Both the position numbers and the translations under genes were made by a program. Source: Craspedostauros australis (Eukaryota > Bacillariophyta > Bacillariophyceae > Mastogloiales > Achnanthaceae). From it: a DNA stretch of 64,000 nucleotides. Where the stretch lies: NCBI GenBank assembly GCA_026770025.1, contig JAMXDE010000013.1, positions 62,001 to 126,000 on the forward strand. The letters are read 5' to 3'. The notes below the pieces were generated by a model. The model was given only the letters and a program-made list of their open reading frames with translations, was not told the DNA's origin and did no database searches. Below, one piece after another: positions 4,663-56,200 of the stretch. Every line of letters starts with the position of its first letter. The first letter of the stretch is position 1.

Positions 4663-5967
4663 ATGAAGTTCGCAACCAGCTCCCTCATCTTGGCTCACAT
4701 CGCCACCACCGCCACCGCCGATGATGGTGCCGCCAACCTCCGCGTCCCAGCCAACAAGGAAGAAAAGGTCGCCGGAAACAGCAAGCTCTCCTGGACTTAC
4801 TACGGAAACAATGAGAGAAAGATCGAGGAGGTCACCGGCGTCACCAAGAAGCTCCGCCGCCTCAAGGATGACATCAAGCCACCCGTTTCTTCCGACCCCA
4901 AGTCTGACAAGGCCAACGGCATGAAGAACAAGAAGGCCAAGGACAGCGACATGACCCCTGCCGCCTTCCTGGCCGCGCTCGGAACACCAAGCACTGCCGC
5001 CGGAGTTGCTCTCCTCGCTGTCATCAAGAAAGAGGCCGACCTCCTCGAGATCTTCGCCAGCCAAGCCAGCACCGCCGCCGGTGTCGCCCTCTTCAACGAC
5101 ATCAGCGGAAAGACCGGTGTCCTCGAGGCATTCACTGCCGGAGCCGCTGCTGACGGAGACATGTTCACCGGAACCGCCGCCGAAGCCGCTGCCTGGTGCG
5201 GCAAAGCAGGACGCACCTGCTGCACTGGAACTGATGCTTGCTCCTGGATGGGAGTTGCCTCCATCGCATCCAACAGCTGCATCGGAAAGGAGGCTTGCAA
5301 AAGCATCGAGACCCAGTCCATCATCTTCCAGGGATCCTGCGTCAGTGGTGCCGGGGGTGACGATGACAAATCATGTTCATACTTCAACTTCAACTCCGGA
5401 ACCAAAAAGGCCTCCATTGTGGCCCCAGGATCCTGCATGGATGGAGAAAGGGTGTGCTATGCCTTCGCCCAGCAGTCCAACGGTGATGCCATTATCGGAG
5501 CAGGTTCCTGCAAAAAAACCCTAGGCTGCGCCGCCATGGGTGCGGGACCAGCAGCCTACGCCTCCGCCACACCAACCACGGGCAATGGCACCACCGACAA
5601 CAAGCGTGTCTCCGACACCATCGTCGGTGCTGGATCCTGCATCAACAACTTTTCGTGCTCTTACCTCAACGCCCATGTCAGTGACACTTATGTCGACCCG
5701 GCCACCCCATACAACCAGTTCGAGGGATCCACCTTGATTGGCGATGGCACCTGCGTTCCAGCCTACTCTTGCCGATACTTGGGATACCAGTTCTACTGGA
5801 GTGCCGACATCAACCTCTCCGATGGCGTGTGCAACGACACGCCTGTTGCCAAATACTCCGGATGCAGCTACTGCTACTACAATTTTGAGGCCCCCAACGC
5901 CTGCACGCCTCTCACTGCCGTTTTTACCGTCGCGTCCGGCAGCTCCTGCCCAGCCTGCACATCTTAA
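4663..5967 (+). CDS. Secreted Cys-repeat protein with RRL-type propeptide site
   Basis: A 434-residue protein. The ATG at 4663 is chosen over the open upstream frame because it follows a typical A/C-rich leader (ccaaaccaacacaATGaag) and begins a signal peptide (MKFATSSLILAHIATTATA, then DDG). Next comes a Lys-rich, acidic segment with KLRRLKDD at ~63-70; RXL motifs are known processing sites in diatom silaffins and related wall proteins. Residues ~105-160 contain two STAAGVAL repeats. The C-terminal ~260 residues hold about six copies of a unit I-x-x-x-G-S/T-C-x(4-5)-C (GAGSCKKTLGC, GAGSCINNFSC, GDGTCVPAYSC). They may form a disulphide-pinned beta-helix; that is inference. No catalytic motif is seen. 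It is probably extracellular or wall-associated, function unknown. Confidence 0.85.
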   Translation: MKFATSSLILAHIATTATADDGAANLRVPANKEEKVAGNSKLSWTYYGNNERKIEEVTGVTKKLRRLKDDIKPPVSSDPKSDKANGMKNKKAKDSDMTPAAFLAALGTPSTAAGVALLAVIKKEADLLEIFASQASTAAGVALFNDISGKTGVLEAFTAGAAADGDMFTGTAAEAAAWCGKAGRTCCTGTDACSWMGVASIASNSCIGKEACKSIETQSIIFQGSCVSGAGGDDDKSCSYFNFNSGTKKASIVAPGSCMDGERVCYAFAQQSNGDAIIGAGSCKKTLGCAAMGAGPAAYASATPTTGNGTTDNKRVSDTIVGAGSCINNFSCSYLNAHVSDTYVDPATPYNQFEGSTLIGDGTCVPAYSCRYLGYQFYWSADINLSDGVCNDTPVAKYSGCSYCYYNFEAPNACTPLTAVFTVASGSSCPACTS

Positions 5968-22091: not shown

Positions 22092-22394
22092 GATTGGCGA
22101 TGGATGGATGGAGAGAGTGGATGCGGATGCTTGAGGCTGAAGGTTAGCTGAGGCTGGAGTGCACTGACTGAATCGTCTTCTGGTGCGGGAGGGTGCTGCA
22201 GGAAGTCTTGGATGGCTGAGTGGGAAGGCCCGAACTCAGCAGGGGAACCGAAAGGAGGGCGTTCTGCGGATGCGAGAAAGCCGAAGGAAAGCCGAAATCA
22301 CGTCGTCACGTGATGGAAGGTGAAGGGATCGCTCGTGGGTGAACGAGGGATGAAGGATGGATGGATTGTCACGCAATCAATTCAGTAGGTGAAA
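22092..22394 (-). other. Leader of the copia element
   Basis: About 300 bp between the primer site and the gag-pol ATG; no long frame. It is the likely packaging and translation leader. Confidence 0.6.
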
Positions 22395-33710: not shown

Positions 33711-36419
33711 ATGTTCCAATCTCTCCTCGTGCGGGGCTTGGTCGCCCTCATGGTCGTCCCAGCAACCATGGGACAAGGGTCTTCCGTCAGTTTCATCCAC
33801 ATGAACGACCATCACTCGCATGTGGATGAGCAGACATTCGATTTGCGAGGTGATAATGTGCCTCTCGGTCTCTCTGTCAACGTGACGAGGCTGCGTGCGC
33901 GGTATGGTGAGTTCGGCAATGGAGTGCGATCCGATCATCGTCGTGATTGTGGACTGATACGGGATCTGCATTGGTGGTCGCCCGTGTATCCCATTATAGT
34001 ATGAAACATAGTAAATAGTTCATTCGTACAAGCCAAGCATCCCAGCCATGCGTACGAATACACGAATTCCATCGCAATATGTAATCGTATCCATGCCACG
34101 AGCCGTGCTTATCCAAGCCCCTTCGTCTGTCCCATTGCTTCATTTTTCCTCACCCCTTGTCACTTCTTTGACCGTCGCTTGTACAATATCATGTACGAGT
34201 TATACATCCCAATTCTCGTACTTCATGCGCATCGGCTATCTGGCATGGCAATCGTCGTTGTCTGCTTCATCCAACCAATATCCAGGCGGGGCACCCCGAT
34301 CTGTTGCATTGATGAAGCAACTCAAGGCCAACGCAACCGATGAGGGGCGGGACGCATTCTGCTTGCACGCTGGCGACGCCCTGACTGGCACCCTTTACTA
34401 CACCTTCTTTGGTGTCCTGCCAGACGCTGCCGTGATGAACGCCGCCGGCCTTGACGTGTTCGCTGTGGGCAATCACGAATTTGACGGGGGAGACAGCGTG
34501 TTGGCCAATCTGATCCAGAATTTGACGATGCCAACCATCTCCAGCAACAGTAAGTAGCCTTGCATTTGCGCAAGTATCTGTCCAATGCTACTACATGATG
34601 AGGACAAACGCGTCCACTCCACGACGCACAGTCAATTGCCCGTCGGTGTTGCTGCTGCCGCTGCTATCGTTGTCACCATCGTCCGGCGAAATACTTCACT
34701 CGCCACTTCATTCTCCGTCCCAATCACACAATCCACCAACCCCCCTCATGCCCCTGTTTATCCCTCTCATCGTTGTCGTACTTCGCTGCACATCACTTGA
34801 CTTCACTTTCTCTGTTGAATCCACATCCAGTCCGTCCCGGACCCAACTCTTCGCTCAACGACTTGGGGGACAAATCCATTGCGAGCCACATCATCAAGGA
34901 CCTCCCCAATGGAAAGAAGCTTGGTATTTGCGGTGTCACCACGAAGCTCTCCACCGAACGTTCCTCCTTCCCTGACGAGGGGACGACGCTCGACGATGAA
35001 GTGGCGTCGGCCACGGCCTGCGTCAATGAACTGAAGACAAAGAACATTACCATGATCGCCCTGCTCTCTCATGTTGGTTACGGCGTCGACGCCTCCATGT
35101 TGTCCATGATCGACGGAGTGGATGTCATCATTGGTGGCCATTCTCACACGTTGATGGGAGGGAATGCGCTCACATCGCTCGGATTCACTCCGCGCTCTGC
35201 GTACGCAGAGCTAGTCAACGGTGTTTGCATCGTGCACAGCTGGGAGTACTTCAAGGTCATCAGCCGGGTCGACGTGGACTTCGACGAGGACGGCAACGTG
35301 GTGCAATGCAACGGGCAAACGTACGTGTCCATCAACCCAGATACGTACCAGATTCGCGATGAGAATTCTCCGTTCGATCGCAAGAACCTGAATGCGTCTG
35401 ATGCTGCCATCGTCACGAGCGTCCTGCTCCAAAACATCGCCGTTGTGAACACAGGAGAAGACCAGGATACGGTGGATGCCATCCGTCCATTCCGTGATCA
35501 GGTTGGCGATCGTGAGGCTGAGACGATCGCCACGGCTGAGACGACCCTTTGCCACACGCGCGGTGGATTTTATGATGCCGCATGCTCCGATAAACCAGAG
35601 CGGACCTTCGTCGGCGGAGGGGTTTGCCTCCTGGTCGCGCAGGGCTTCCTGTACAACGTCCCAACGGCCGACGTCGCGATCCAGAACTCCGGAGGCTGCC
35701 GCACGTCCATTGAGGAGGGAGAGTTCACATTCGGTGATGCCTTCACCGTCCTGCCCTTCACCAACACCCTCGTGATTCTCAAAATGACGGGCGCGCAGAT
35801 CAAGCAAGTGCTCGAGGACGCCCTGAGTTTCACGTTGGATGCTGGCGGTAGCACTGGCGCGTTCCCCGTGAGCGCCGGATTGCGATGGAAGAATAACTCC
35901 ACCATGCCGACCAACGAACGCATCAGCGAGCTTGAGGTGAACATCCGTCTGGAAGAGGATTCGTGGAGCCCCATTGACATGATGAAAAATTACACCGTCG
36001 TCACCAACGATTTTATTGCCGCTCCCCGTGACGGATACTTGACATTCGGAGAGATCGACAAGTCCGATCCATCCGCGTACACCAACACCTTCATTGAGTA
36101 CGGCCAGTCTCTTGTCAACTTCGCCAAGGAGGTACAGATCCTACGCGACCCCCCGCTCGACGTGTACTCCACGCAGCTCCTGGTCACTGCGACAGGCGAG
36201 ACCGTGGACCTTTCCAGCATCGGTGGCAGCGACACAGCTGTCAGCATGGCTCCATCCAACGCCCCTTCCAGCTCTCCCTCCAACGTTCCAACCAAATCCG
36301 CGACCGGCACACCAACCAGTGTTCCGACCGCCGCACCAACATCCGGAGGCGTCGTGGCTCGCAACGCAATCTCATTGGTCGCCGCCACTGCTCTCTTCGC
36401 GACGCTTCTTCTCGATTAG
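33711..36419 (+). CDS. Secreted 5'-nucleotidase / metallophosphoesterase, probable GPI anchor (three exons)
   Basis: Exons are 33711-33906, 34286-34549 and 34831-36419, with introns of 379 and 281 bp (GTGAGT...CAG and GTAAGT...CAG, both phase 1), giving 682 aa. A signal peptide (MFQSLLVRGLVALMVVPATMG) is followed by the metallophosphatase motifs: NDHHSHV (32-38; Asp33/His35), AGDALTG with Asp96, GNHEFDGG (127-134) and GGHSHT (~255-260). The 5'-nucleotidase C domain has IQNSGGCR and FGDAFTVLPFTNTLV. The C terminus is a Pro/Ser/Thr linker (SNAPSSSPSNVPTK) and a hydrophobic tail ending TALFATLLLD, as in GPI signals. The enzyme should release phosphate and nucleoside from extracellular nucleotides, so it is a candidate for phosphorus scavenging. 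The metal-binding residues I looked for are present. Confidence 0.92.
33907..34285 (+). other. Intron 1 of the 5'-nucleotidase gene
   Basis: GTGAGTTCGG at the donor and ATATCCAG at the acceptor; it joins ...RLRARY-G with GAPRSVALMK, as expected for the family between the first two metal motifs. Confidence 0.85.
34550..34830 (+). other. Intron 2 of the 5'-nucleotidase gene
   Basis: GTAAGTAGCC at the donor and CACATCCAG at the acceptor; it joins ...PTISSN-I to RPGPNSSLND in frame. Confidence 0.85.
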
Positions 36420-38681: not shown

Positions 38682-40355
38682 CTAGGCCTCGATCTCGGCT
38701 TGCTCCTCCTGGAGCGCAAGGTCCTCCTCGTAGCGCTGGGTGTCGGTGGCATTGGCCTGCTCCGAGTCCAGCTTCTTCAAGGCAGCCATCTCCATCTCGA
38801 GGGCTTGCTCGTAGATGTCTGCCTCGGTCTTGGTCTTGGCACCATCGATCTCCTCACGAAGTCCCTGGATGTTGGCTTCCATTCGTCGGCGTCGCTCGGT
38901 GAAGGTCTCCTTGGGTGTGGCAAGCATTCTCTGCAGGTGAAGGTACTCCTGTGGGACCTTTCCGGCACCAGCCTCATTGACAAGGACGTTGGTTCCAAGG
39001 TGCAGGTTGCGGTTGCTCTTGTGGTCTGGCTTCATGCCGGCGGCGCGCTCCTCTGGGGTGCCAATGTACACCTCATCGAGCTGGAAGCCAGAGACGGCCT
39101 TGTGGATGGAAGCGAGAACCCAGGCTCCGGAGCAGATACCGGTGGCTTCCAACAACAGACAGAACTGGAGGAAGATGTAGACGATTGGGTTGGAAAGGAA
39201 GGCGATTGGGAAGACGGATGCGACCAGCTGCCATGTGATGGAGGCGATGATGGTGGTGATGAGAGCTCCGAGAAGTCCGGTGTTGAAGAATTCCTGGGTG
39301 CTGTCGGAGACTCCGAAGATGTTCTCGCCTTCGCCCACCTCGACATCAAGAGTGGTGACACGGGCGATGATGAAGAAGCACATGGTCACGCAGATCTGAC
39401 GTCCAATCATGAATCCTGGAAGGTTGCGTCCGTCACCGCGGAAGAGGAGCTCGCAGGTCTTGCGGGCCATTGGGTGGTCTCCACGGTCCTCCTTTGGGAG
39501 CTTGGCGACTGCGAAGAAGGCGATCTGCATACCCTCGAGCATACCGACGATGGACATGAAGAGGAAGAAGAGGATGACGGCGACTCCGTTTGGCACTCCG
39601 GCCCACATGGTGGTCTTTCCATCGAACAGGGCGACGAGGGTGACGGCCATGGCGTAGCACAGGATGGCGAGGGAGATGAGGATGCGGCCCCAGTAGAAGA
39701 GGTTCTGGGCACCGTCACGTGGTGGTTCCTTGGACTCGATTTCCTTGCCGGAGGCCCAGACGAAGAACATCTGGACGAGGTAGCACGAATGCAGAAGTCC
39801 GGAGAACTCGATGGCGAGGGCGACGTAGAGGGTGAAGACGGCGAAGAAGTTGTTGATGTAGTCAAGCATGCAGAGGGAGGCGTTGACTTGGGAGTTGAGC
39901 TGTCCGGCTTGAGCGGTCATGAGGATCATGGCGGCTCCGGATCCGAGGAAGATCTGGATGATGATATCTGGGAGTCCGAAGACTTCGGCATCGGCAAGCG
40001 GGGCGCCGCACTGGTTGATGGTGAAGACCATGAGGAGGACCATGAACTGACGTCCCATGAGGTAGCGATCGAGGTTGTCACCCTTGTGGGCGAGGGAGGT
40101 GCACTTGTGGCTGGTTGGGTGGGATTCGACGTAGAGGTCGCGGTCGACTGGTGGGAGACCGACGAGGGAACCTTGTCCTCCCTCCACCATGTTGAGCCAG
40201 ACGAGGGCGGTGATCATGACGACCAAGGCGACCACTGGGTGGACCTCGGACGACACCTTGGTCTGCTCATTGAAGATGAGTCCGCAGACGATGGTGATCG
40301 AGAAGATGAGGAGTCCGGTGGAGTACACCGACTTGACGAGCTGAACGGGATCCAT
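38682..40355 (-). CDS. SIT: Silicic acid transporter (SIT)
   Basis: A 557-residue protein with about ten hydrophobic segments and a long C-terminal Glu/Lys/Ala-rich coiled coil (~480-557). The diagnostic SIT signatures are all present: EGGQ (58-61) with GRQ (101-103), and the second pair EGMQ (274-277) with GRQ (318-320), in the duplicated halves of the transporter, plus CMLD (162-165). CMLD has been linked to raphid pennate diatoms. SITs take up silicic acid with sodium at the plasma membrane (and perhaps internal membranes) for frustule building. The start is the first Met of the frame, after a low-complexity leader. It is single-exon. It faces the GK1 gene head to head with a 1289-bp gap, so the two could share control sequences. 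Confidence 0.95.
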   Translation of the reverse strand: MDPVQLVKSVYSTGLLIFSITIVCGLIFNEQTKVSSEVHPVVALVVMITALVWLNMVEGGQGSLVGLPPVDRDLYVESHPTSHKCTSLAHKGDNLDRYLMGRQFMVLLMVFTINQCGAPLADAEVFGLPDIIIQIFLGSGAAMILMTAQAGQLNSQVNASLCMLDYINNFFAVFTLYVALAIEFSGLLHSCYLVQMFFVWASGKEIESKEPPRDGAQNLFYWGRILISLAILCYAMAVTLVALFDGKTTMWAGVPNGVAVILFFLFMSIVGMLEGMQIAFFAVAKLPKEDRGDHPMARKTCELLFRGDGRNLPGFMIGRQICVTMCFFIIARVTTLDVEVGEGENIFGVSDSTQEFFNTGLLGALITTIIASITWQLVASVFPIAFLSNPIVYIFLQFCLLLEATGICSGAWVLASIHKAVSGFQLDEVYIGTPEERAAGMKPDHKSNRNLHLGTNVLVNEAGAGKVPQEYLHLQRMLATPKETFTERRRRMEANIQGLREEIDGAKTKTEADIYEQALEMEMAALKKLDSEQANATDTQRYEEDLALQEEQAEIEA

Positions 40356-41644
40356 CTTGGGTTATTTTTCTTGCTTTGCTTCTTACTTGATGCGCTGTTT
40401 GCTTGGATTGAGCGTTGTGTCTTTCCAAACTTTGGGATTGTGAGTGAAGCAGAGTCCTTTGTCAAACAGTGTGGCTGTGTTGCAGTTTCTTGTGCTTGAT
40501 CCATGTTTTTCTCAATGGTTTCTCGCAGTGTCTCGCGATGGCATGCTTCGCTGTGGCTTGTTGTCCACATCTGGGTGCTTGACAACTTGGTGGCTTGATG
40601 GCTTTGCGACTTGGCGAAAGAAATTTATTCTTGTACGACGACGGAACACCCAATGCGCTCACCCGGCGTCACGACTGCGCACTTTGAATGGCCTGACATT
40701 GGCATTGAGCATTGCAATTTATTCAGACTTGTTTAAAATTATTCCCAAGACACAATCTCAAATGACCGTTGTCAATTTTGCTTCCCTGAGAAAGAACTCG
40801 AAGGAAAACAAACGGTCACATTCGGAGAATCTTCGACTCGGGCGATCCGAACGCGGATAACAGAGGGGAGAACACGTCCTTCATGTGGAAGACAGCCCGC
40901 CCGATGAGAGTCGTTGGCTTGTCACACTCCAACGATGTCCAAACACATGGTAAGGAGTGTTGATTTCGGTATGCCACTTAGGTCAACGAATTGGCGTGGC
41001 GGTTATAACATGTCTTGATAAACGTCCAATGTAGTTATTCTTATCGCATGTGGCTTCACTTGCATGTCGTTTCGCCAGTCGATCCCGATTTACTGGCAAA
41101 CGTCTGAGACTTCAGGTTCAGCGGTCACATTTTCAAGGACAACAGTATCCGGCAGGGCAAAGTGAGGAAAGAAGCAACAAGCACAGATGGCCGATCGCGA
41201 GGATGGCAAGGCATCTTGCTTGCGACGCACCGCAGTGATCATGGAGCGCCAAGTATCAAGCATCCTCGGACCTTCATCGTCCTGTCAATCGACCTCCCGA
41301 CGACTGCAAGTAGATCCGACGATCACAGAACGAACCAGGCCCTGCGTTGCCGCTTGTCAAACCAAGTTGTTCAAACATTGAAGACATCGATGGACATCGG
41401 CAAACCCAAACACATCAACCACACACAACAGCATTTCATTCGAAGGCCTCCCATTTGCGCACCTGCATGTTGGATACTGCTTCGAGCAATCACAAAAGTT
41501 CAAATCAATTCAATTAAACACACAAAGCACACACACACACACACACAAATCACTCACGTTCAAAGCAAGCAAGCCGAGAAACGGAGTAGACAAGTGACGT
41601 CAACATCGACAAGCCAACCACAAGCAACCGAGACAACCCTCATC
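40356..41644. promoter_or_regulatory. Divergent intergenic region between SIT and GK1
   Basis: 1289 bp between two divergent start codons; both promoters must lie here. It holds a (CA)n microsatellite at 41530-41546 and, from ~41400, an A/C-rich leader that is duplicated upstream of GK2 (from ~45247). No defined element could be identified by eye. Confidence 0.5.
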
Positions 41645-43384
41645 ATGAAGACATCCATCACCAACACTATATGCCTCGTCGCACTCTTGCTGGCGACGCT
41701 CACATGGCACAACGCAGATGCTCGCGTCTTCAGTGCGGAGCATCACAGCCGTGACTCCCGCCGACGCGGAGTCCGCGGACAGCAAGACATCATCCGAGGT
41801 TCGCGCCGCGCCCAAGAATCGAGCAGCGGCAAGGGCGACAGTGGAAAGGGAGATGATGGAAAAGGAGACGAAGGCAAGGGAGGGAAGGGCTACGACTGCT
41901 CCGGCAAGGGTGGAAAGGGAGGAAAGGGAGGCAAAGGCGGAAAGGGAGATGATGGAAAAGGAGAAGACGGGAAGGGCGATGAAGGCAAGGGTGGAAAGGG
42001 TGGAAAGGGAGATGAAGACGAGGACGAGGACGAGGACTTTGAGTGCATCTGTGACGAAGGCAAGGGCGGCAAGGGCGGCAAAGGTGACGACGGCAAAGGC
42101 GGTAAGGGAGATGACGGCAAGGGCGGTAAGGGAGATGACGGAGATGACAGCATCGATGGTAAGGGCGGCAAAGGTGATGACGGCAAGGGTGGCAAGGGTG
42201 ATGAGGGCAAGGGTGGCAGATCGTGCTGTTGCTCTGAGCAACCCAGCAGCAGCCCAAGCAGCCCTCCGAGTCTCCAACCCAGCGAAATGCCATCCGTCGA
42301 CCCAAACCGAATCCAAAAAGATCAACCAATCAGTTTTGACTCCGCATCCGCAGAACCAACGGGAAATCCGACAGTGATTCCGACATCTGTTCCAACCTCC
42401 GTTCCCACCTTCCAGCCAACTCTGAAGCCCACATCTGGACCGACATCTGGACCGACATCTGCACCCACATCTGGACCCACATCTGGACCCACATCTGGAC
42501 CGACATCCGCACCAACATCCGCACCAACATCTGCACCCACGCCATCACCAACAACGCAACCGACATCGACGCCAACAGCCAGTCCAACTATTCGTGACAG
42601 CTTCGGACCAACGATGGAACCAACCGCCAATCCAACAGCGCAACCAACTTCTCAACCAACTTCGGGACCAACTTCGCAGCCAACCGCAAGCCCAACGTCT
42701 GGACCAACCTCAAGACCAACCTCCCAGCCGACATCACAACCAACATCAAGCCCAACTTCCGAGCCAACATCACAACCGACGTCAAGACCAACGTCAAAAC
42801 CAACGTCAAAACCAACGTCAAAACCAACGTCAAGACCGACGTCAAAACCAACGTCAAGACCAACGTCAAGACCAACGTCAAACCCAACCTCCCAGCCAAC
42901 ATCAGCACCAACATCGGCACCAACATTGGCGCCAACCGCGAACCCAACCTCGCAACCGACATCGGCACCAACATCAAACCCAACGTCAAACCCAACTGCA
43001 AGACCGACATCGGCACCGACCTCCGATCCAACCTCTAACCCAACATCAAACCCGACATCACAACCAACATCCAGTCCTACCTCCAACCCAACAGGTTCAC
43101 CAACGGAGCCTCCCACCGTCGAGGTACAGCAAGATACTCTCGATCCGACGCTGCCACTCCCCACCCTCATGCCTCCTCTGTACGGCCACGACGACACGAG
43201 TCCTCTGCAGTGCGCTGGCGGATCCGGATGGCAACTAATCGCACCCGAGTACGAAGCGTGTTTCCAGGCGTCGGATTGCGCAGGAGTCAACGATCCATTC
43301 AGCGGGAAGGTGGCATGCTGTCTCAAATCCTTCTGCTATTGTGCAGAGTTCGACGCCGTCAATGAATGCGTCCCGGCTGCATAG
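41645..43384 (+). CDS. GK1: secreted GKGGK/PTS-repeat protein with 8-Cys domain
   Basis: A 579-residue protein. The ATG at 41645 follows a leader shared with GK2 and opens a signal peptide (MKTSITNTICLVALLLATL...NADA). A basic, propeptide-like stretch follows (RVFSAEHH, RRRGVRGQ, RGSRRAQ). Residues ~61-191 are Gly/Lys/Asp repeats (GKGGKGDDGKGGKG) broken by an acidic DEDEDEDEDFEC segment. A CCC motif (~193) and SEMPSVDPNR come next, then ~250 residues of PTSxPTS repeats (likely O-glycosylated). The C-terminal domain (~521-579) has eight cysteines, including KVACCLKSFCYC and NECVPAA. No enzyme motif is seen. The composition suits a cell-wall, matrix or silica-binding protein; that is inference. 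It is near-identical to GK2 in the first ~190 residues. Confidence 0.85.
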   Translation: MKTSITNTICLVALLLATLTWHNADARVFSAEHHSRDSRRRGVRGQQDIIRGSRRAQESSSGKGDSGKGDDGKGDEGKGGKGYDCSGKGGKGGKGGKGGKGDDGKGEDGKGDEGKGGKGGKGDEDEDEDEDFECICDEGKGGKGGKGDDGKGGKGDDGKGGKGDDGDDSIDGKGGKGDDGKGGKGDEGKGGRSCCCSEQPSSSPSSPPSLQPSEMPSVDPNRIQKDQPISFDSASAEPTGNPTVIPTSVPTSVPTFQPTLKPTSGPTSGPTSAPTSGPTSGPTSGPTSAPTSAPTSAPTPSPTTQPTSTPTASPTIRDSFGPTMEPTANPTAQPTSQPTSGPTSQPTASPTSGPTSRPTSQPTSQPTSSPTSEPTSQPTSRPTSKPTSKPTSKPTSRPTSKPTSRPTSRPTSNPTSQPTSAPTSAPTLAPTANPTSQPTSAPTSNPTSNPTARPTSAPTSDPTSNPTSNPTSQPTSSPTSNPTGSPTEPPTVEVQQDTLDPTLPLPTLMPPLYGHDDTSPLQCAGGSGWQLIAPEYEACFQASDCAGVNDPFSGKVACCLKSFCYCAEFDAVNECVPAA

Positions 43385-45527
43385 AAGTTTCACGTGATCG
43401 GCAATATCGTGTTGCCGATGGTCGTTGAATGGCGTCGAACGCATCTCAACAGCATAGCAACAAGGCATCAGATGGCATTTGTGCAATACTACTCGTACAC
43501 ACCATGCGGGACAGTAGTTATCCATGGCGCGACTCGCTTGCAGCCAGGACACACTGTCACTTCCTTCCTTGCTTCCCCTACTGCTCGAATCCAATCCGAA
43601 CCGATCTCACGTCGGATAGCAACACCACGGATGACGAGAGCGGAGCGTACAAGCACGATACTGAGGTGACGCAGAGCTTCGCAAGTCTCACGACTGTAGC
43701 GCAATCGAAGTTGCTCCTCACGAGGAAACCAAGAACTCTGTATCGGCCAGTGCGTGTATACACATACATAATCTCATATAGTACTCATACGAGCTACAAT
43801 ATTTCCTATCCTCCGCCCTTCTCGTTCGTTCTCTTCTCTGCCGTACTATATCTGCTCAGCTTGACCTGCGCGCTGTGCTTTGTTCGGTTCGATCTGTTTG
43901 GATCCTGTATCATTCTCCTTGATTGAGCCGCAATGATTATGTGCCGACGCCGGGATGAATCAACGTATTATTGCAATGTGATGCCACAAGCCAAAGCCAA
44001 AGCCAAAGCCAACGCAGAAGTAGAAGTCGACGCGATAGTCAAGATGAACACTGTGGGCCAGCCGTGTCGAACTCGCAGGGAGGTATTGTTGCCATGAGGT
44101 CCCTGGTGTCTCTTCTCCCTCCTGTCGTCAAGACATGCGGGATGTCATGAATGACTGATAAACCAAGAATTGATGAATGGGCGAACGATTTCGGACAACA
44201 ATCTCGCAAGGCCATGCTTTTGCTGCTCTTCATCACGCAACGACGTTGTGGCGATGGCATGCTCCAACACGTATATCTTACCAGCCTGGTACCATACCTG
44301 CGCGCACAAAGACGAGTGCCAATGCGCAGGATCAATACGAGTGCATACAGTGCGACACCACACAACATACGAGTCCGCTCGAACCCATTCACTTCGGTAG
44401 ATGTCGGCCGGTGGTTTGATCGAGGTTCCCCCAGGCAAACACGTTGAAACCCCGTTTGACAAGGTTGATGGCAACAACGGACCATGCGTCTATCTCACCA
44501 ATGACAACACATCGCGAGCATTATGGCGAACTTGGGAATACGATTACAGCGAAGCGCGACGCAAGGTGGGGTAGATTGTGTTGACATGCACCTCCCCTCC
44601 TTCACGAAACGAACAACGGTTGTCGAAGTCGTTTGTAGCATCCCCACCGCTTCTCCAAATGCGGCAGCAAAGATCGTGGAACGGGTCTTGTTCCATGTCC
44701 CAACCATCCGCCATCTTGGTGATCGTTGCAATTTTGTGTGGTGTAACATCGGTGCCTTGGTGCGGACTATCTGCTCATGTTTTGTTTAGAGAAACGCGAG
44801 TGCCAAGCGTTACTTTCGAATGAAAAAATAACGTTCGTAATAAGTAGTTCTCTTGCAGGCGACAATACTGTTGTCTCTTTTGTGGCGCCACTCCGAAATA
44901 CCGTTGGAGTTCAAAATGCGAACAATGCTCCCACATTTTCCTTCTCGAGAAACTCCCCAAAAACGACAACAACAGCAACAACAAACGCAAACGCACTCGT
45001 GCGTGCAGGTCGCTGGTGAAGACAGCACCGTACTCGCGGAGACAAGCATCGCAAGTCAACAAGCGGGGCGCTATCACCGAGTGCCCTCCTCGAACTCCTC
45101 CTCCCCATCGCATCATTCCCCGTCGAACATCGAGCATGCCCAGGCCACCTTTGTCTGGTCAACCGACCTCCTGGAAGAAAACAACCAAACTCCAACCAGA
45201 GTCCGCATGCCAACCTGTTGCAAAAACAAGACACAGCGCAGAACAGCATCAAACCCAAACACATCAACCACACACATCAACATTTCACTCGAAGGCCTCT
45301 TTGTTGGATACGGTCTCGGGGCACTCATAAAACTGAAATTCAATGCAGTGAAACACACAAAGCACACACGCGAACAGCAGGCAAACAAAGCAAGCACACC
45401 AAGCAAACCAATCAACGAGCTCGGAGCACCCAGAGCACTGGCCGTGACCTTGATACAAGCATATACAATCACATTTGAGAGCCCAACATCGACAAGCCAA
45501 CTACAAGCAACCGAGACAACCCTGATC
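43385..45527. other. Intergenic between GK1 and GK2
   Basis: No gene is seen. An open frame runs into GK2 from 44853, but its upstream part has leader composition. From about 45247 the sequence is homologous to the leader of GK1 (aacccaaacacatcaaccac shared). Confidence 0.5.
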
Positions 45528-47600
45528 ATGAAGACATCCATCACCAACACTATATGCCTCGTCGCACTCTTGCTGGCGACGCTCACATGGCACAACGCAG
45601 ATGCTCGCGTCTTCAGTGCGGAGCATCACAGCCGTGACTCCCGCCGACGCGGAGTCCGCGGACAGCAAGACATCATCCGAGGTTCGCGCCGCGCCCAAGA
45701 ATCGAGCAGCGGCAAGGGCGACAGTGGAAAGGGAGATGATGGAAAAGGAGACGAAGGCAAGGGAGGGAAGGGCTACGACTGCTCCGGCAAGGGTGGAAAG
45801 GGTGGAAAGGGAGATGATGGAAAAGGCGGAAAGGGAGATGATGGAAAAGGAGAAGACGGGAAGGGCGATGAAGGCAAGGGTGGAAAGGGTGGAAAGGGAG
45901 ATGAAGATGAAGACGAGGACGAGGACTTTGAGTGCATCTGTGACGAAGGCAAGGGCGGCAAGGGCGGCAAAGGAGGAAAAGGCGACGACGGCAAAGGCGG
46001 TAAGGGAGATGACGGCAAGGGCGGTAAGGGAGATGACGGAGATGACAGCATCGATGGTAAGGGCGGCAAAGGTGATGAGGGCAAGGGTGGCAAGGGTGAT
46101 GAGGGCAAGGGTGGCAGATCGTGCTGTTGCTCTGAGCAACCCAGCAGCAGCCCAAGCAGCCCTCCGAGTCTCCAACCTAGCGAAATGCCATCTGTCGATC
46201 CAAACCGTGATGATAGGGATCAACCAATCAGTTTTGGGTTTGCATCCGCAGAACCAACGGGAAATCCGACAGTGATTCCGACATCTGTTCCAACCTCCGT
46301 TCCCACCTTCCAGCCAACTCTGAAGCCCACATCTGGACCGACATCTGGACCCACATCTGGACCCACATCTGCACCCACATCTGGACCCACATCGCAACCG
46401 ACATCTCAACCGACATCGACGCCAACAGCCAGTCCAACTATTCGTGACAGCTTCGGACCAACGATGGAACCAACCACCGATCCAACCGCGCAACCAACTT
46501 CCCAACCAACTTCGGGACCAACTTCGCAGCCAACTTCGCAGCCAACCGAAAGACCGACATCACAACCGACGTCAAACCCAACCTCGCAGCCAACAGCCAG
46601 TCCAACTATCCGCGATAGCTTCGGTCCCACCATGGAACCGACCTCTAATCCAACCACAAATCCGACATCGCAACCGACGTCAAACCCAACCTCCCAACCA
46701 ACATCGGCGCCAACATCGGCGCCAACAGCTAGCCCGACCATCCGCGAGAGCGTCGGACCCACAATGGATCCAACCGCAAATCCAACCGCGAACCCGACCT
46801 CGCAACCGACATCGGCACCAACAGGTAGTCCGACCATCCGCGAGAGCGTCGGACCCACAATGGATCCAACCGCAAATCCAACCGCGAACCCGACCTCGCA
46901 ACCGACATCGGCACCAACAGCTAGCCCGACCATCCGCGAGAGCGTCAGACCGACGGCTGGGCCAACTGTTCAGCCAACCACTGCCCCAAGCTCCCAACCA
47001 ACAACGGCACCGACAGCCAGCCCAACTGTCCGCGACAGTTTCGAGCCCACGATGGACCCGACTGCTCAACCAACCGCAAACCCAACCGCGCAGCCAACCG
47101 CGCAGCCAACCACGCGGCCCTCCGGTCGTCCGAGCCTTCGACCAAGCTCGAATCCAACCTCGAATCCAACTTTGCAGCCAACCACAAGCCCCTCGTCCAA
47201 CCCAACTTCAGGCCCAACATCGGATCCATCCTCTCAACCATCATCGGAGCCGAGCGTTGATCCGGACAGGAACCAGCCGGGCGGGCCACCAATTACATTC
47301 GGATCGGGCGATCCACCGACGAGCGCTCCCACCGAGACAGTCACGCGCGAAACTCTCGATCCGACGCAGCCACTCCCAACGCGCATGCCTCCTTTGGTAG
47401 GCCACGATGACAGCAGCCCATTGCAGTGCGCTGGGGGATCCGGATGGCAGGACCAGTTCCCGGAGTACAAGCCATGCTATCAGGCCGATGACTGCACTGG
47501 AACCGACGATCCATTCAGCGGCAAGGTCGCGTGCTGTCTGAAGTCCTTCTGCTACTGCGCAGACTTCACGGACGTCTCCGAGTGCGTTCCGTACCCATAA
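45528..47600 (+). CDS. GK2: secreted GKGGK/PTS-repeat protein with 8-Cys domain
   Basis: A 690-residue tandem paralogue of GK1 whose start lies 3883 bp downstream. Signal peptide, RVFSAEHH/RGVRGQ stretch and most of the GK domain are the same as GK1, apart from small in-frame gains and losses of GKGGKGDD units. The PTS region is longer (~242-574) and contains six copies of a variant block related to SPTIRDSFGPTMEPT (RDSF x2, RESV x3, VRDSFEPTMDPT), against one in GK1. The C-terminal 8-Cys domain (~632-690; KVACCLKSFCYC, SECVPYP) is clearly more diverged than the N terminus. This uneven divergence suggests gene conversion or recent unequal exchange in the 5' half. The upstream in-frame extension (44853-45527) is not taken as coding because GK1 homology and the signal peptide begin at this ATG. 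Confidence 0.85.
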   Translation: MKTSITNTICLVALLLATLTWHNADARVFSAEHHSRDSRRRGVRGQQDIIRGSRRAQESSSGKGDSGKGDDGKGDEGKGGKGYDCSGKGGKGGKGDDGKGGKGDDGKGEDGKGDEGKGGKGGKGDEDEDEDEDFECICDEGKGGKGGKGGKGDDGKGGKGDDGKGGKGDDGDDSIDGKGGKGDEGKGGKGDEGKGGRSCCCSEQPSSSPSSPPSLQPSEMPSVDPNRDDRDQPISFGFASAEPTGNPTVIPTSVPTSVPTFQPTLKPTSGPTSGPTSGPTSAPTSGPTSQPTSQPTSTPTASPTIRDSFGPTMEPTTDPTAQPTSQPTSGPTSQPTSQPTERPTSQPTSNPTSQPTASPTIRDSFGPTMEPTSNPTTNPTSQPTSNPTSQPTSAPTSAPTASPTIRESVGPTMDPTANPTANPTSQPTSAPTGSPTIRESVGPTMDPTANPTANPTSQPTSAPTASPTIRESVRPTAGPTVQPTTAPSSQPTTAPTASPTVRDSFEPTMDPTAQPTANPTAQPTAQPTTRPSGRPSLRPSSNPTSNPTLQPTTSPSSNPTSGPTSDPSSQPSSEPSVDPDRNQPGGPPITFGSGDPPTSAPTETVTRETLDPTQPLPTRMPPLVGHDDSSPLQCAGGSGWQDQFPEYKPCYQADDCTGTDDPFSGKVACCLKSFCYCADFTDVSECVPYP

Positions 47601-49515
47601 GCCGCAGGCAATGTCGGCGCACCGATGCCGCCGTCCACGAACTCACTATCATGCCCAATCACTCTGGCTGCCATGCGAAGGTCATCTGTGGCGCGATTAT
47701 TCACGCAGCCTGGATACCATCCCATGCACAGTCATCAATCTCGCTGAATGTAAAGTGATTCTCATTTGTGAGCATCTAGCACGTCGATGGCGCGGACCAG
47801 CATACTTCTTCGCTCGACTCTGCCCTCCCAGGCTCGTTCTATCCGAAGGCAGGAATGCCAGAGTTCAAACTATTCTGCATGATCGTGGATAAGAACGATG
47901 GAGGAGCAGCGGGGGCGCGAAGGAACAACAATTGAAGAAATGATTGAACACATGAACACCCACTCAATGGATCAATGAATCAATGGATCAATGAATCAAT
48001 GGATCAACCTTCGTCTCATCCCATAGCAGACATGCCGCCCTCTTCCGGTGCGCTCCATCCCGCAATCCGCCTTCCAATCTGTACCAGTACATGCGCTACG
48101 TGCACAGCCTGTGTAACATAAAATACCATTACATATTATTATATAATACGTGACATCTACATGCTCCGCTCATCAGTTATCCTGGCTGGCAAAGCATGTT
48201 GCTGTTATTGTTCTCGTTGTTGCAGATGTAGTCGAAGTCGCCTGTACTCCTGCACTCGTTGGTATAGATAATAGTGTGTCCATTGTGGGAACAGTGTCAG
48301 ACAACAAAACGGCATTCAGATTCACCATCAACATTCTGTTTTGCATTTATTGATCTGTATATGTATTTTGACATGACTTCCAACAATGGCGGGAAGACTT
48401 CGTGTTTCTTGTCGTGCACACGTCCCGCTTCTCCTTGCTTTCAATGTGCTTAGCGTTTCAATTTCCGATTCCCGCGTTGCAACAGACAGCTTTGGAAGAG
48501 TGAAATGGACAGCAAGGATGTTTCGCGTTTGTTTTTTTTGGCTTCTCCGTCCGTTACAGCATCACTGAAGCAATCCCGAGTTGTGCAGCACGACCCACTA
48601 CCGTTATGCCAACGGTGTCACAATTATCTGGTCCTATCACAAAATTGGTTGGAACGGATGAATGCGCACCTCCGTGACGAACAACATGCAAAAATGGGGA
48701 GGTGGACACTGGTTCGCGAGTTTTGTTTATAGTCAACCGTGTCGCATGTGACATATTTGTGTATTTGAGTCGTCTGTAGGACACTAAATAAACAAACAAC
48801 GACCATACTCACAAGTCTGTTCTTATCCCTTCGGCCGAAAATCGCAGGGCGATTTTTGAAATGTCGGCGACGGGAATGGACTGGATAGCCCTACTTCGTT
48901 CCGATTGGGCAGGAGGAGCACGAACCCCCCAACGCTGCGAGCGTTTTAGCTCACATGTTGGTGTTGTCGTTGTCGTTGTTTGATTGTTTGTCGGGGGGTT
49001 AGTTTTGTCTGTTGGCCGAGGTGATGCCGATGGATGTGGAAGCTGTTCACCTGTTGTTTCTCGCTTTGGTCTTGTGAGCGCCCAGCTAAGTGATGGACTA
49101 TGCTTTCCCACGTTGATGTTCTGTCCCCGCATCGCATGTGTGGGACCAGAGACATTGCGCCGCGCGACGATCGTTCTTGCGCATGGCAAGAGAGAAACCG
49201 GAGAAGTATTCGTCGACCGTACCGAAATGGGAAGCGTGTGTATTCGCATGGGACGTGGCATGGTGCCTGTGTGTATTGGCGGCACGCGAGATCACGCAAC
49301 AACGCAGCACCACTCGTATTCCCCTTCAACTCTTTCGCTCGTTTCGCAATCATTTTCAGACACAATCCTCATAACTCGAGCATCATTGCAATCGCTGCAC
49401 CACCGTGGTCATACGCACACTCCATCACTTCATCACTTCATCACTCCAAGTGTATCAGCACTCATACACTCACCAATACACTCATTCACCAATACACACA
49501 AGTATAGCAGCAAAG
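47601..49515. other. Intergenic between GK2 and GK3
   Basis: A 9-bp-type repeat (atcaatgga/atcaatgaa) occurs at 47964-48006 and TA-rich sequence at 48118-48150. No gene is seen. The last ~80 bp carry repeated cactcatt/catcactc motifs, probably leader. Confidence 0.5.
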
Positions 49516-50571
49516 ATGAGAGTATCAACAAACAGCATGATCTGCCTGATGGCACTGGTGGCTGCCACTGTCTCTCTGCAATCCGTGGAAGCTCGCGTGT
49601 TCAGCTCTGATTACCATGACCGCCGTTCGCGCAGCCGCGGAGTTCGAGGACAGGACCAAGAGGAAGACACAACGACGCGCCGCCTGAAGTCCGACGATGA
49701 AGGCAAAGGCAAAGGAGGCAAGGGCTACGACGGCAACTCCACCTACGACTGCGATGACTTCGGCTTCGGCAAGGGCTACGGCAAGGGCAAGGGCAAGGGC
49801 AAGGGAGGCAAAGGCAAGGGAGGAAAGGGCGACGACGAGTCCGGCAAAGGAAAGGGCAAGGGTAAAGGCGAAGGAAAAGGCTACAACAGCACCATGGACG
49901 ACGAGATGGCCTGTCTGTGCGTCGGTGAAGGCTACGGCAAAGGAGGCAAGGGCGGCAAAGGCAAGGGCGGAAAGGGCAAGGGTGGCAAGGGCGACAACAG
50001 CACCTACGCTGGAAAGGGCCACTACGGCAAGGGCTACGGCAACGAGACCTACGACGGCACCGGCCACTACGGAAAGGGCTACGGCAAGGGCAAAGGCAAG
50101 GGCGGCAAGGGAGACGACGAGTACTACCATCCATGCTGCTGCGTCTCCGAAATGCCGACCGTCGATCCAGACCGCGATGAAGACGGCGGTCCGATCGATC
50201 CAAACACCGACACCCAGACACCAACCACCATGCCAACCTCCGAACCCACTTCCGCACCCACTTCCGAACCAACCTCCGAACCAACGGAAACAACGTCCCC
50301 ACCATCGGAGGAGAACGTGGACACCCTCGATCCAACTCTGCCTCTTCCGACGCTCATGCCGCCGCTCTACGGACACGACGACTCGAGTCCTCTGCAGTGC
50401 GCGGCAGGATCCATGTGGCAGGCGATATCTCCAGAGTACAAGCCGTGCTTCGAGGCAGGCGACTGCGCGGGAGTGGATGATCCGGACACAGGCGCGATCT
50501 CGTGCTGCCTCAAGTCCTTCTGCTTCTGCGGTGGCTACGACATCCTCACCGAGTGTGTCCCAGCGGCCTAA
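49516..50571 (+). CDS. GK3: shorter GK-rich secreted protein with 8-Cys domain
   Basis: A 351-residue third family member. A signal peptide (MRVSTNSMICLMALVAATVSL) is followed by the shared ARVFSSDYH...RGVRGQ stretch and a TTRRLKSDDE site (RRL 55-57), like the KLRRLKDD of the secreted Cys-repeat protein at 4663. The GK domain (~62-205) is richer in GKGYGKGKGKGGKG, with Tyr and N-glycosylation sites (NSTY, NSTM, NETY) absent from GK1/GK2. CCC, SEMPTVDPDR, a short PTS linker (~235-260) and the 8-Cys domain (~294-351; AISCCLKSFCFC, TECVPAA) follow. RXL sites are used to mature silaffins, so this may be a processed wall protein; function is unproven. It is clearly older than the GK1/GK2 pair. Confidence 0.85.
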   Translation: MRVSTNSMICLMALVAATVSLQSVEARVFSSDYHDRRSRSRGVRGQDQEEDTTTRRLKSDDEGKGKGGKGYDGNSTYDCDDFGFGKGYGKGKGKGKGGKGKGGKGDDESGKGKGKGKGEGKGYNSTMDDEMACLCVGEGYGKGGKGGKGKGGKGKGGKGDNSTYAGKGHYGKGYGNETYDGTGHYGKGYGKGKGKGGKGDDEYYHPCCCVSEMPTVDPDRDEDGGPIDPNTDTQTPTTMPTSEPTSAPTSEPTSEPTETTSPPSEENVDTLDPTLPLPTLMPPLYGHDDSSPLQCAAGSMWQAISPEYKPCFEAGDCAGVDDPDTGAISCCLKSFCFCGGYDILTECVPAA

Positions 50572-51504: not shown

Positions 51505-53236
51505 TTCACATCTATTTCCACTTGCACTTGTACTTTCATTTCCACTTCCATTCCCAATCTCCATCGCACGACCACCACATTCGCAACCTTCCGCAACACA
51601 TGAATGCACTCCAAAGCAGAGCTCTCTCCAAGTATTCCATTGTTGGTTTCTGCTTGGGAACGGTCAATCATGCCAAATACGGAAAGCTCCCTCCAGGATT
51701 CAACGAACGCAAACAGAAAGACAGACGTAACCTCGGAGACCCATCTGCCCAAGGGGGACAACAGGCACCTGCTTTCTGCTCATCCTCGTGTTGCGCCATG
51801 CTTGGTGGGAGAACTGTTCTATCAGCATGCCGAGCGAGGAGCTCGTTGGTATAGTATTGGTGTGCACATGCATGCTGTCGGCACTTCATTCACATCGTGC
51901 TCACTCTGATCGGAGAAGGAACTTCACCTCGCTTTTCCGACAGCCATCCGATCCAAGTCCGATTGTGATATTGCGTTGCATGTGGGTTCAAAAGAGACAA
52001 TCGCGGGAAAATGTGTGTCACGAAATAGGACATGTGTTCGGCCTGCGTAACACATGGAATTTCGATATATTTCGTTGCATGTGATGTTGTCACACGTAGC
52101 CAAAGCGCGAACGCGAAGCGAGGCGGGAAGACGTTGAACGAATGCGAACGGAAACAGACTCATTCAAAACCACAATGCGTGTGTTGACCGTGAATCTTTC
52201 TCTTCTTTTTCCCATGTTGTTGTTGCCACTTCCTGCCTCTCGAAGACTGATGGCAGAGGGCAAAAGCAGCGGCACAGGAGAGGATGGGTCGGCTGCATGT
52301 TTTCGAAATCGAATGGGTGAAGGTAGATGGAACATCAACACAAAGAGGCAGCGAGAGATGGTGAAAGATTCTGGCGCGGAGTGGTGTCATGCACACGCGG
52401 ACTTCGGCAGGAAGTATTCGTATTCAAACCAAGGGAAGGGGGGAGAGAGATGGGGGTGACTATGGACATCTGATGCTGCACATCGGACTCCACATAATCC
52501 ACCAACAAATCACGAACCAGCAACTGATGAGGGGCGACCTTTTGAATGGCAACTAACAGTTGAATCTTGCTCCCACCATCCAAAACTGAAGACTCTTCTT
52601 TCGCTGCTTCCGGATGTGCAAAAGTGGTCCTCTGCTTGATGGCATTATACCATACCATATCAGTGCCATAGATCGTACATCACGATTGATCTGCATCGCT
52701 GTCGCCTCGCTCCTGTTGCTCTCACTATTGGTATTCACTTCAGAGATCCCGCCGATCTGGTCCACATTCATCACAAGTTCCGTCACGCTAATCCCGATCG
52801 ACGCATTGGCTTCGACATCGTGCCGACCACACCACAACACAACACTCCACTCCACGGTCCAAGATATCCTCCACGGCGCTCTCCACGATACCAATACTCT
52901 ATCTGCTTGAACATCACGTTGGGATCGTGATCTCACTTTCGAAGCACCGTGGCGCGCCACAAACATTAGCACAGGACTCGCAAGGGATACTGGCGGAGAT
53001 ATTGGTGGAGATAGTCTTGGAGATACCAATCCACAACAAACAACCCTACCATACTCGTACCACACCTACGAGCAAGCACTTTCGAAGCGCGCCAAGATCA
53101 GAGCAGTTGGAACTGGACAGAGCAGTCGTACTGGCATTTGGTAGTATTATAGTACATACCGTACGCCACCGACGAGGAGAGAGTGCAGAGTCCTCTGCTC
53201 TGTGAGTATCATACTCGTACGCACACGCTGTGAATC
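50572..53236. other. Intergenic, 2.7 kb
   Basis: A (CT)n microsatellite lies at 51474-51500. Frames up to ~186 codons are not recognisable and include the microsatellite. No gene is called. Confidence 0.45.
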
Positions 53237-56200
53237 ATGGACTTCCTCTTTGGCAGGACAGCATCGCCAGCCCCAGCATCCACAACGACTCCCACAACGA
53301 CCTCAGCCTTGGGTTACGATCGGACCAGAACCAGTTCCACTTCAGCCATAAACTCAGATGGCAAGACAACAGCAAGAGCATCAACTTCAGCAACAGCATC
53401 ATCACATTCGCAATCGAGAATAACACCAACAACAACAACAACAAGAGGAAGAGGAAGAGAAAGGGAGTGGCGAACGCCCTCACACAGTACAGGCGCCACC
53501 TACCAATCGAGGTTTGACAGGGGCGAATCAAGGGCAAGCACAAGCACAAGCACCGGGAACGGTACTACCACGGGCATCGGACAAAGCATCGCCACAGGCC
53601 TTGCTCGATTCCAACAAGCAACCAGGCCGCTTCATCACCAACAGCAGCAGCACCAGCAGAACGAGTACGACGCAACGTTGCCATCTGCATCTCAGCCCGC
53701 TCTCGCATCCATATCTTCTGCACGAGCTTCATCTTTCTCATACAACCCATCCAACCCATCCAACCCATACTCAGCGAGGGCATATTCGCACACGCAGAGC
53801 GCAGAACGCAGCACCACCTTGAGACCCTGGTCATCATCTATGAGTACGCGCAAACCGTCCGCATCTGACACTTCGCATACAACCATGGTGTCTTCTCTAC
53901 CCACGCCTGCAACTGCATCAGCATCTGCATCTGCATCCACCCCGGCGGCTACGAGTACATCAGCAGCCATGGCCACGAGCACGACCGCAACCACGACCAC
54001 GGCTGTCTCTGTGTCCCAGAAGGACGACCTATGCAGATCCGACACCGCCAGCAACAGCACGAGCGCCTCCCGGGGCCACCAATCCTTGCGTCTGCCTGCG
54101 CAAGAAATCAAGCTGCTGCGCTCCATCCTCATGGATGAAAGCTACCTTTCCACCACCATGGACGATGACACCGTCGCGAACGCTTCCCACATCAGCATGG
54201 ACAGCCTCCTCCCATCCAACATCAAGCCAGCAAGGGCCGAGCGCAAGTACGAGTACTTCCAGGACCTCCACAGTGAAGAGAAGAAGGAGACGGACCTCCC
54301 CGTGCCATCCATTCACGCCGGCAACAACACGTCCATTCTCGCCATCAAGACCGACACTCCAACTGAGGAGTCCGGACACACTGCGTCGCCCACTCAATCG
54401 GAGTCTTCCGACAGTACCAGTACGAATGGGAAGTCCCATCGGGGTGCTTTTCCTGACAGCGCCACCTGCTCCACGGAGCACTTGCCACCAAGCCCACCCG
54501 ACGAGCGCGAAGCAACCGACGTCCCGCCGTCCACGGCGTCCCTACCAGCACTAGCATCAGCACCAGCATCAAGCTTAGCCGCTGTTCCGCCTAGAGCCAC
54601 CGACGGCGATGCTGACGGCAACAAGCCTGGCGCGGAACCGCCCGCTCCCGTCTCGTCCATTGGCGCATCGGCGAGATCCAAAATGAGACAGCTCGAGCAG
54701 ACCTTTCTCGCCTTGCAGACACATGGAGCAACGCTCATCTCGGCACCCTCTGCCTCCACCACCACTGCGAAGGCTCCATCTGCCGCAACACTCGAGCGTG
54801 TTCAGAGCGACGCGAGCGACAAGGCAGATGGCTTGACATGGCGCTTGGATAGCACCAGCATCTTTCGTGGTCTCAAGTCTCCTCCTGCGGTGGGTTCAAC
54901 GACGATGGAATCATCGCTCATGGCACAGATGCAGCGCACATCCTCCTCGATGTCATCGTCGAGGATCTTCGAGGATTCCACCACGTCCACCGAAGTCGAC
55001 GCGGTGTCCATCAACGGACACGACAACGCGCACGGTGACGGCGCAAGCGTCAATGCGGCAGATTCCTCGTCTCAATCCGCCCCATCGCTGCTGACGCCCG
55101 CTTCCGTCGACTCCGCAACCGCTGACCTTCGTCGCGTTGCCGCGCTGGAACTGCTGGCCAAGGAAACCAGCCGAGGTTGGAACATCAACGGCCAGATGGC
55201 GCAGGTCGCCGATCAGAGGGTCCTGTCGCTGGCGGACGACGAAAGTGAAGGCGACTTCGATTTGCTTCTTGATCTCAGCCCTGGAAAGCACACCAGCGGT
55301 TTCGAGCCTGGCGATGCGGGCAACTCAAAAAGTGGCGCAGGCGGGAAAGCCCACAGGGGAAAAAAGACGCACGCGGATTCTTCGATTGGCATCACGCGGC
55401 TGATGGGGGCATCAGGACAGAAACCTGGAAACGGCTCACAAACCACAAGCGCCACGGGCCATCCGAAGCGCCAAGACGCCACCATGGCCAACCGAAAGGC
55501 CCACAACAGCAGCGACCCTGGGACGCAGCCAGCGAAGCGCACGAGCACATTCGGCGACAACAACAACAAGAGCAGCCATAGCAATAACGGCAACAGCAGC
55601 AGCAGCCCTGCGACCTCACCGAAGAACAACCTTCTGGTCGCACCGCTCGCACCTGGTGAATCCAGCGGCGATGATGACAACCACAGCAACATGAATGGCA
55701 ACAACATGGACACCAGCAATGCGATCAACACTGACGATGACATCGAAGCCAACCGCAACGGCAGCAACAATGGCAACAACGGCAACAACAGTCGCAGAAA
55801 GAACGGCAGCAACAATGGCAACAACGGCCCGATGAAAAAGGCCTTCAACAAGGGCTCGACAAGCCATCACTTCGAGATCACGAGCGAATCCAGCAGCGAC
55901 AACGCCTCCTCATTTGTCTACAGAACCCCGTCCAACGACATGGGCAGCCTGGACGATCGCAGCGGCAGCGGCTCCGCGCGAAGACAGACCCTGCTGCCAC
56001 GTTCCCAACATCGATCCGATGCCCTGGCACCGCTGACAGACGATCCGCTGATCCTCCGCATGCCAAACACCGCGTTTGGAATCAGCATGGGGTTGGCTGG
56101 CAACGCCCTCCTCTGGAAGACGGTCGTGCAGGCTGACTTCCTCGTGGGGGGTGAGAGCGACAACGGAGAGCTCGCCGTGTTCCGCAAGGACAACATCGAG

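Follow-up and report, generated by a model that had tools for sequence, protein, structure and literature searches.

A silicon transporter gene with a family-shared core and a divergent tail beside a cluster of Gly-Lys repeat genes in the diatom Craspedostauros australis

Silicon transporters (SITs) of diatoms have GXQ and CMLD motifs, as defined in PMC10700740, and, in the excerpts of the literature on which we draw throughout, their number is typically 3-5, with 1-6 in 37 Thalassiosirales (PMC10700740) and 3-8 in the diatoms compared with Parmales (PMC10328945). An expansion of the family, partly tandem, has been described in Nitzschia putrida (PMC9054022), and 'more than 30' copies were given for some genomes in a 2026 paper using a loose definition, by which Bacillus genes are also counted as SITs (PMC13403384). 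In Synedra, the multi-SIT genes SuSIT1 and SuSIT2 hold near-identical SITs in one genome, and gene conversion was proposed in 2018 for two identical SITs of that diatom, such conversion being, to the knowledge of that paper, unfound in diatom genomes (PMC6114903). Among candidate silica-associated proteins, Thalassiosira pseudonana has been screened for a signal peptide together with K[SG][SG]K motifs spaced 1-6 residues apart (PMC5501833). Here, we describe a stretch of 64,000 bp of Craspedostauros australis (the window; contig JAMXDE010000013.1, positions 62,001 to 126,000), in which an intact SIT gene lies beside three tandem genes, GK1, GK2 and GK3, whose predicted products carry Gly-Lys repeats (Table 1). 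The reading that best fits codons 1-450 of the SIT and the first ~1 kb of GK1 and GK2, and also the simplest one, is partial ectopic gene conversion. In the full form of this reading, to which we give a probability of roughly 55%, about 28 uninterrupted, dispersed SITs have a core kept uniform by ectopic conversion while their tails escape it, the window SIT being the one compared member with an old, distinct tail; the tails would be interchangeable and possibly regulatory, and the same kind of short-tract conversion would hold GK1 and GK2 identical over their processed half and leave their Cys domains free to diverge.

Table 1. Features of the SIT and GK region and of CD1, in window positions; GK models are predicted.
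Feature	Position	Strand	Basis or content
SIT, 557 aa	38682..40355	minus	PF03842 match and paralogue comparison; codons 1-450, transport core shared by the family; charged C-terminal tail of another type
Intergenic region between SIT and GK1 start codons, 1,289 bp	40356..41644	.	holds CTCACAATC, beginning 89 bp above the SIT start
Identical run, 278 bp	41642..41919 (GK1) = 45525-45802 (GK2)	plus	part of the ~1 kb homogenised tract
GK1, 579 aa	41645..43384	plus	signal-peptide-like start, Arg-rich propeptide ending SRRAQ, GKGGK domain at residues 62-190 (net -10), PT repeats, 8-Cys domain
C-terminal 8-Cys domain of GK1	43133..43384	plus	homologues at 47349-47600 (GK2) and 50320-50571 (GK3)
GK2, 690 aa	45528..47600	plus	tandem paralogue of GK1; single open frame
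GK3, 351 aa	49516..50571	plus	same layout; RRL at residues 55-57, GKGK-rich domain (net +15), short PT stretch, 8-Cys domain
CD1, 273 aa	61158..61979	plus	same C-terminal Cys domain; RRR, then KGDKGG remnant

The gene at 38682-40355 is confirmed, from its translation, as an intact gene of the SIT family. PF03842 covers it over its whole length (815 bits, E 2.1e-245, profile positions 3-509 of 513; Pfam), and EGGQ, GRQ, EGMQ and GRQ together with CMLD are all present, in keeping with the GXQ and CMLD motifs of the family. An earlier note made from the letters of the window had described a SIT with all signature motifs, head-to-head with GK1 at a distance of 1.3 kb and followed by GK2 and GK3 on the strand of GK1; this description holds, the two start codons being separated by 1,289 bp and GK1-3 each being a single open frame on the plus strand.

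The case for a patchwork origin of the SIT rests on its synonymous sites. Compared with eight other intact SITs of the same genome (L001-L008), the window SIT differs at 7-11% of the 4-fold degenerate sites in codons 1-450 and at 39-67% of those beyond codon 455, a contrast found in 8/8 comparisons (Fisher p 6e-4 to 2e-8), and windowed synonymous divergence (dS), given for five of the eight pairs, ranges from 0 to 0.20 for the core but from 0.70 to 1.17 for the tail. Codon preference provides no explanation of this contrast, because the GC content of third codon positions (GC3) differs little between core (0.80 in the window SIT, 0.79-0.83 in L001-L008) and tail (0.75 and 0.76-0.83, respectively). 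Upstream, similarity to the flank of the window SIT gives out some 100 bp from the start codon; downstream, it does not reach past the stop codon. Long flanks are shared within the pairs L001/L004, L002/L007 and L003/L005, which look like segmental duplicates. The tails of 21 other copies, 8 from intact genes and 13 from partial or split ones, are 72-100% identical to the tail of L001; the tail of the window SIT is 32-53% identical to 19 of these 21, and no match was reported for L041 and L042. The gene at L031 itself has just a 19-residue piece, and the L031 match is the L030 tail.

Selection on the core combined with a fast-evolving tail could also set core and tail apart, with no gene conversion at all. 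Protein constraint on the core is indeed strong, the ratio of nonsynonymous to synonymous divergence (dN/dS) being 0.04-0.11 between the window SIT and its eight paralogues. Among L001-L008 themselves the tails also diverge faster at 4-fold sites (18.9% vs 8.5%), which weighs against the conversion reading of the SIT, and part of the core/tail contrast may thus be ordinary. Such selection would nevertheless have to produce the same step at 4-fold sites in every comparison at like GC3, and it leaves aside a similar mosaic in GK1 and GK2, with a dS of 0 over codons 1-85 against 1.03 for the Cys domain; we therefore regard it as an unlikely account of the whole pattern. The identity of GK1 and GK2 is 85-100% per 60-bp block up to about position 42660 and 68-80% thereafter, so that a homogenised tract (41642-42660 in GK1, 45525-46515 in GK2) stands between older flanks.

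If gene conversion is the right explanation, it would have acted between dispersed genes in a diatom, a process unfound to the knowledge of the Synedra paper in its available excerpt (PMC6114903). As in Synedra, SITs of one genome are alike and conversion is suggested; unlike SuSIT1 and SuSIT2, the genes that share a core here are dispersed single-SIT genes, and the window SIT keeps a divergent tail and divergent flanks. We found no other paper on SIT gene conversion in diatoms in a literature search that ran without most subscription journals. A SIT family of this size with a uniform core and variable tails would also invite a test of whether the diversification of these transporters lies in regulation or targeting, not in transport.

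The family to which the window SIT belongs is large. In the 74.8 Mb of the same assembly, 88 matches could be joined into at least 56 SIT places on 22 contigs (54 without two short fragments on contig C5), these counts being lower bounds, and intron-containing genes may be among the split copies. Near full length and free of stops are 28 of the places; another 4 hold long copies interrupted by one or two in-frame stops, further copies are partial or split, and some stand in tandem (contigs C2, at 977-1029 kb, C10 and C3). The expansion of N. putrida resembles the present one in being partly tandem (PMC9054022). Overall identity to the window SIT is 88-90% in 21 and 75-87% in 6 of the 27 other uninterrupted SITs. 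The sequence-level comparison covers 9 of the 28 uninterrupted genes, the window SIT included, and the other 19 enter by these overall identities, the spread of which suggests a shared core joined to a different tail. Haplotype copies or assembly errors could inflate the count; core dS of 0.07-0.14 among the 15 pairs listed, together with the placement of close pairs on the same contig (L001/L004 on C11, L002/L007 on C9), argues against the copies being simple haplotigs. Given the count in PMC13403384, large SIT numbers are not claimed here as unreported.

GK1-3, whose gene models are uninterrupted open frames predicted from the DNA, are judged by their layout to be one gene family: a hydrophobic start is followed by an Arg-rich, propeptide-like stretch, an RR pair, Gly-Lys repeats, a Pro-Thr (PT) region and an eight-cysteine domain at the C-terminus. 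When the genome was searched with GK3 and an 83-residue composite sequence of this domain, six Cys-domain places emerged in total, namely GK1-3, GK4, CD1 and CD2. GK4, on contig C5 (L044:2750-9082), has the layout of GK1-3 in a single open frame of 2,071 aa; it is rich in Ser, Lys and Gly, its GK and PT-like blocks are interleaved, and by its composition it is rated the most silaffin-like member of the family. CD2 is a close tandem twin of CD1 just beyond the window (L015, contig C11, 126.4-127.2 kb). Neither CD1 nor the GK4 frame matched a Pfam family at E up to 0.01. By eye, CD1 and CD2 have a second, more N-terminal Cys-rich region with a similar C...CC...CxC look.

The start of GK1, GK3 and GK4 is signal-peptide-like in hydropathy, the property on which this assignment is based, and in having an [AV]-x-A site; the first 85 codons of GK2 are those of GK1, hence its start is judged through GK1. 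The earlier note was right about the basic, propeptide-like stretches, which are the Arg-rich stretches before RR in GK1-3, and about an RRL site in GK3, which is real and lies at residue 55. All of the 6/6 paralogues have an RR directly ahead of their Lys-Gly stretch, and among GK1-4 RXL occurs in GK3 (RRL) and GK4 (RSL) only, so that RR is taken to be the conserved feature and the RRL noted earlier one form of it. The note had mentioned neither the PT-repeat regions, which are long in GK1 and GK2 (PF04886; in GK3 just 11.5 bits, below the cut-off), nor the Cys-rich C-terminal domain that GK1-3 share with one another and with CD1. This domain appears constrained, because its dN/dS is 0.06-0.19 among GK1-3, with dS saturated in the pairs involving GK3 (1.6 and 3.2).

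We consider it somewhat more probable than even that GK1-3 are extracellular or wall proteins of a silaffin-like type, supplemented by a Cys anchor domain. The closest described proteins are the KXXK proteins and silaffin-like proteins (SFLPs) of T. pseudonana, which have a signal peptide, as predicted here for the GK proteins, along with repeated KXXK (X being S or G), PT repeats and pentalysine clusters, the last found also in GK1, GK3 and GK4 (PMC5501833). In the excerpt of that paper, 14 SFLP/KXXK proteins have PT repeats, all 10 new KXXK proteins have RXL, and 8 of these 10 have pentalysine clusters. The GK proteins differ in that X is nearly always G, in being Asp-rich, in an extra 8-Cys C-terminal domain and, for GK1 and GK2, in having no RXL. 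The cingulins CinW2 and CinY2 have lysine-enriched regions of clustered K(X)2K with Gly/Ser spacers that resemble the GK repeats (PMC9650480); unlike them, the GK proteins have Gly/Asp spacers, PT repeats and the Cys domain. Counts of K[SG][SG]K motifs are 13 in GK1, 13 in GK2, 8 in GK3 and 36 in GK4, with 4, 5, 3 and 11 pairs, respectively, at 1-6 residues from each other; a frustule or wall role is reasonable because GK1-3 carry this motif part of the T. pseudonana screen. Pentalysine clusters (5 Lys in 12-14 residues) start at 1 position in GK1, 7 in GK3 and 48 in GK4. In a control set of 494 open reading frames of at least 150 aa from the window, L001-L008 and L030-L048 (overlaps unmerged; L009-L029, which repeat the GK or nearby places, left out), both the spacing and the pentalysine test were passed by three frames, which are GK4, GK3 and GK1. 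Pleuralins, wall proteins with PSCD domains, are secreted, Pro-rich and Cys-rich, as is predicted for the GK proteins, which carry Lys-Gly repeats in addition; no chain of a PSCD protein, of which the PDB is said to hold one, was among the profile matches of the GK Cys domain at E up to 10.

On this reading, the GK proteins would enter the endoplasmic reticulum by the signal peptide and would lose the Arg-rich propeptide at the conserved RR site (RRL in GK3, RSL in GK4). The Gly-Lys/Asp region may then bind silica or wall polymers, with the PT region as a disordered, probably O-glycosylated spacer and the 8-Cys domain as a putative disulfide-bonded anchor. Repetitive sequence and fast evolution make silica-matrix candidates difficult to detect, and the conserved Cys domain offers a handle for homologue searches. 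We found no literature match for lysine GKGK proteins of diatoms.

Several results weigh against a silaffin-like nature of GK1-3. RXL is absent from GK1 and GK2, where all 10 new KXXK proteins of T. pseudonana had it (PMC5501833). The description of the three as Lys-rich holds in part: the repeats do contain Lys, Gly and Asp, but the Lys domains of GK1 and GK2 have more acidic residues than lysines (27 K vs 37 D+E and 28 K vs 39 D+E) and are net acidic before modification (-10 and -11), the corresponding charge being +15 in GK3 and, across a longer region, +62 in GK4. GK2 has 0 pentalysine clusters. A composition test requiring at least 18% Ser and 10% Lys, thresholds reportedly due to Scheffel et al. 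in 2011, was passed by 0 windows of 100, 150 or 200 aa in GK1-3, and by 1,329 windows in GK4. An AlphaFold2 model of the Cys domain, with the four window rows in its alignment, has low confidence (predicted local distance difference test, pLDDT, 54.6), and sequence searches of the PDB with this domain gave chance-level matches or none.

The GKGGK repeat, too, has to be read with care. A DNA pattern of the GKGGKGGKG type has 15 matches in the 74.8 Mb, with 0 for the reversed control pattern, and these are divided among GK1-3 (10), GK4 (2), a gene on contig C4 (1) and a single histone H2A tail (2). The idea that the pattern is unique to GK genes was accordingly rejected. The histone H2A-type gene (L046, at about 5000, minus strand, contig C27; Pfam Histone and Histone_H2A_C) has the N-terminal tail GKGGKGGKGGKGGK, and the gene on C4 (L045, about 4900-5010, minus strand) has GKGGKGD repeats in a reading frame beside long PT repeats; on inspection, the GK Cys domain was not seen in this PT-rich gene. 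Because the pattern occurs in such genes, a KGGK repeat alone proves nothing about a role in silica, a further point against the silaffin-like reading.

The GK proteins could instead be secreted for adhesion, for mucilage or for the extracellular matrix in general, without contact with silica, which we hold to be rather doubtful. They combine PT repeats with a Cys domain, both of which are frequent among secreted matrix proteins; the net acidic GK domains of GK1 and GK2 would suit such a role, as would CD1 and CD2, which have the Cys domain yet hardly any Lys-Gly repeat. This account fits less well with the KXXK spacing in all of GK1-4, with pentalysine clusters in three of these four proteins, and with GK4 being rich in Ser and Lys, as silaffins are.

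The earlier note had further proposed that the SIT and GK1-3 could be a co-regulated set for silica uptake and wall building, and this proposal found no support: co-regulation of the SIT with GK1-3 is unlikely, and the closeness of the SIT to the cluster is probably incidental. In a true biosilica locus, the four genes would be co-regulated, GK1 and the SIT would share a bidirectional promoter, and silica uptake and wall building would both fall within a single cell-cycle phase. In its favour, apart from the head-to-head order and the short distance between the starts, a random point has a probability of just 0.19% of falling within 1.3 kb, on either side, of any of the 54 SIT loci, and the tail of this SIT is of a type of its own among those compared, so that it may have a special role. 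That probability, however, was computed after the fact, and a diatom may hold tens of silaffin-like genes, T. pseudonana having 55 regulated SFLPs and 10 KXXK proteins (PMC5501833). Moreover, a GK neighbour is found at 1 of the 56 SIT places: genome-wide searches found neither the GK DNA pattern nor the GK Cys domain near any other SIT match, GK4 lies 1.27 Mb from the nearest one, and contigs C4 and C27, where the other pattern matches lie, have no SIT match.

The upstream sequences point in the same direction. Similarity between the upstreams of GK1 and GK2 begins at 41401 and is limited to the GK-proximal ~245 bp above the start, the SIT-proximal half of the intergenic region being uncopied. 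In a crude test, the 400 bp upstream of SIT, of GK1 and of GK3 had 0 8-mers in common; simple repeats inflate the null mean of 4.5 shared words, which exceeds the observed 0, and the zero alone is used. The element CTCACAATC upstream of the SIT also stands above 7 of the 8 other intact SITs compared, but the first 1 kb above each of GK1-4 lacks it. A silicon shift-down in T. pseudonana places SIT1 with the most strongly induced genes and suppresses the clusters of TPSIL2, CinY1 and SiMat7-like genes, so that SIT1 and silaffin or cingulin genes respond oppositely to silicon (PMC5501833). Because the adjacency is single, the upstream copy partial, promoter words unshared and these T. pseudonana responses opposite, a co-regulated locus appears distinctly improbable.

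Other genes of the window were noted in passing. Between GK3 and CD1, a SLAC1-type anion channel with a very long Ser/Asn-rich N-terminus is encoded at 53234-57559 (Pfam). Elsewhere, at 34602-36419, lies the gene of a protein with a 5'-nucleotidase C-terminal domain that closes with a short stretch of PT and a hydrophobic tail. A retroelement frame with RVT_2 lies on the minus strand at 16506-22235 (Pfam), and is presumably of the copia type.

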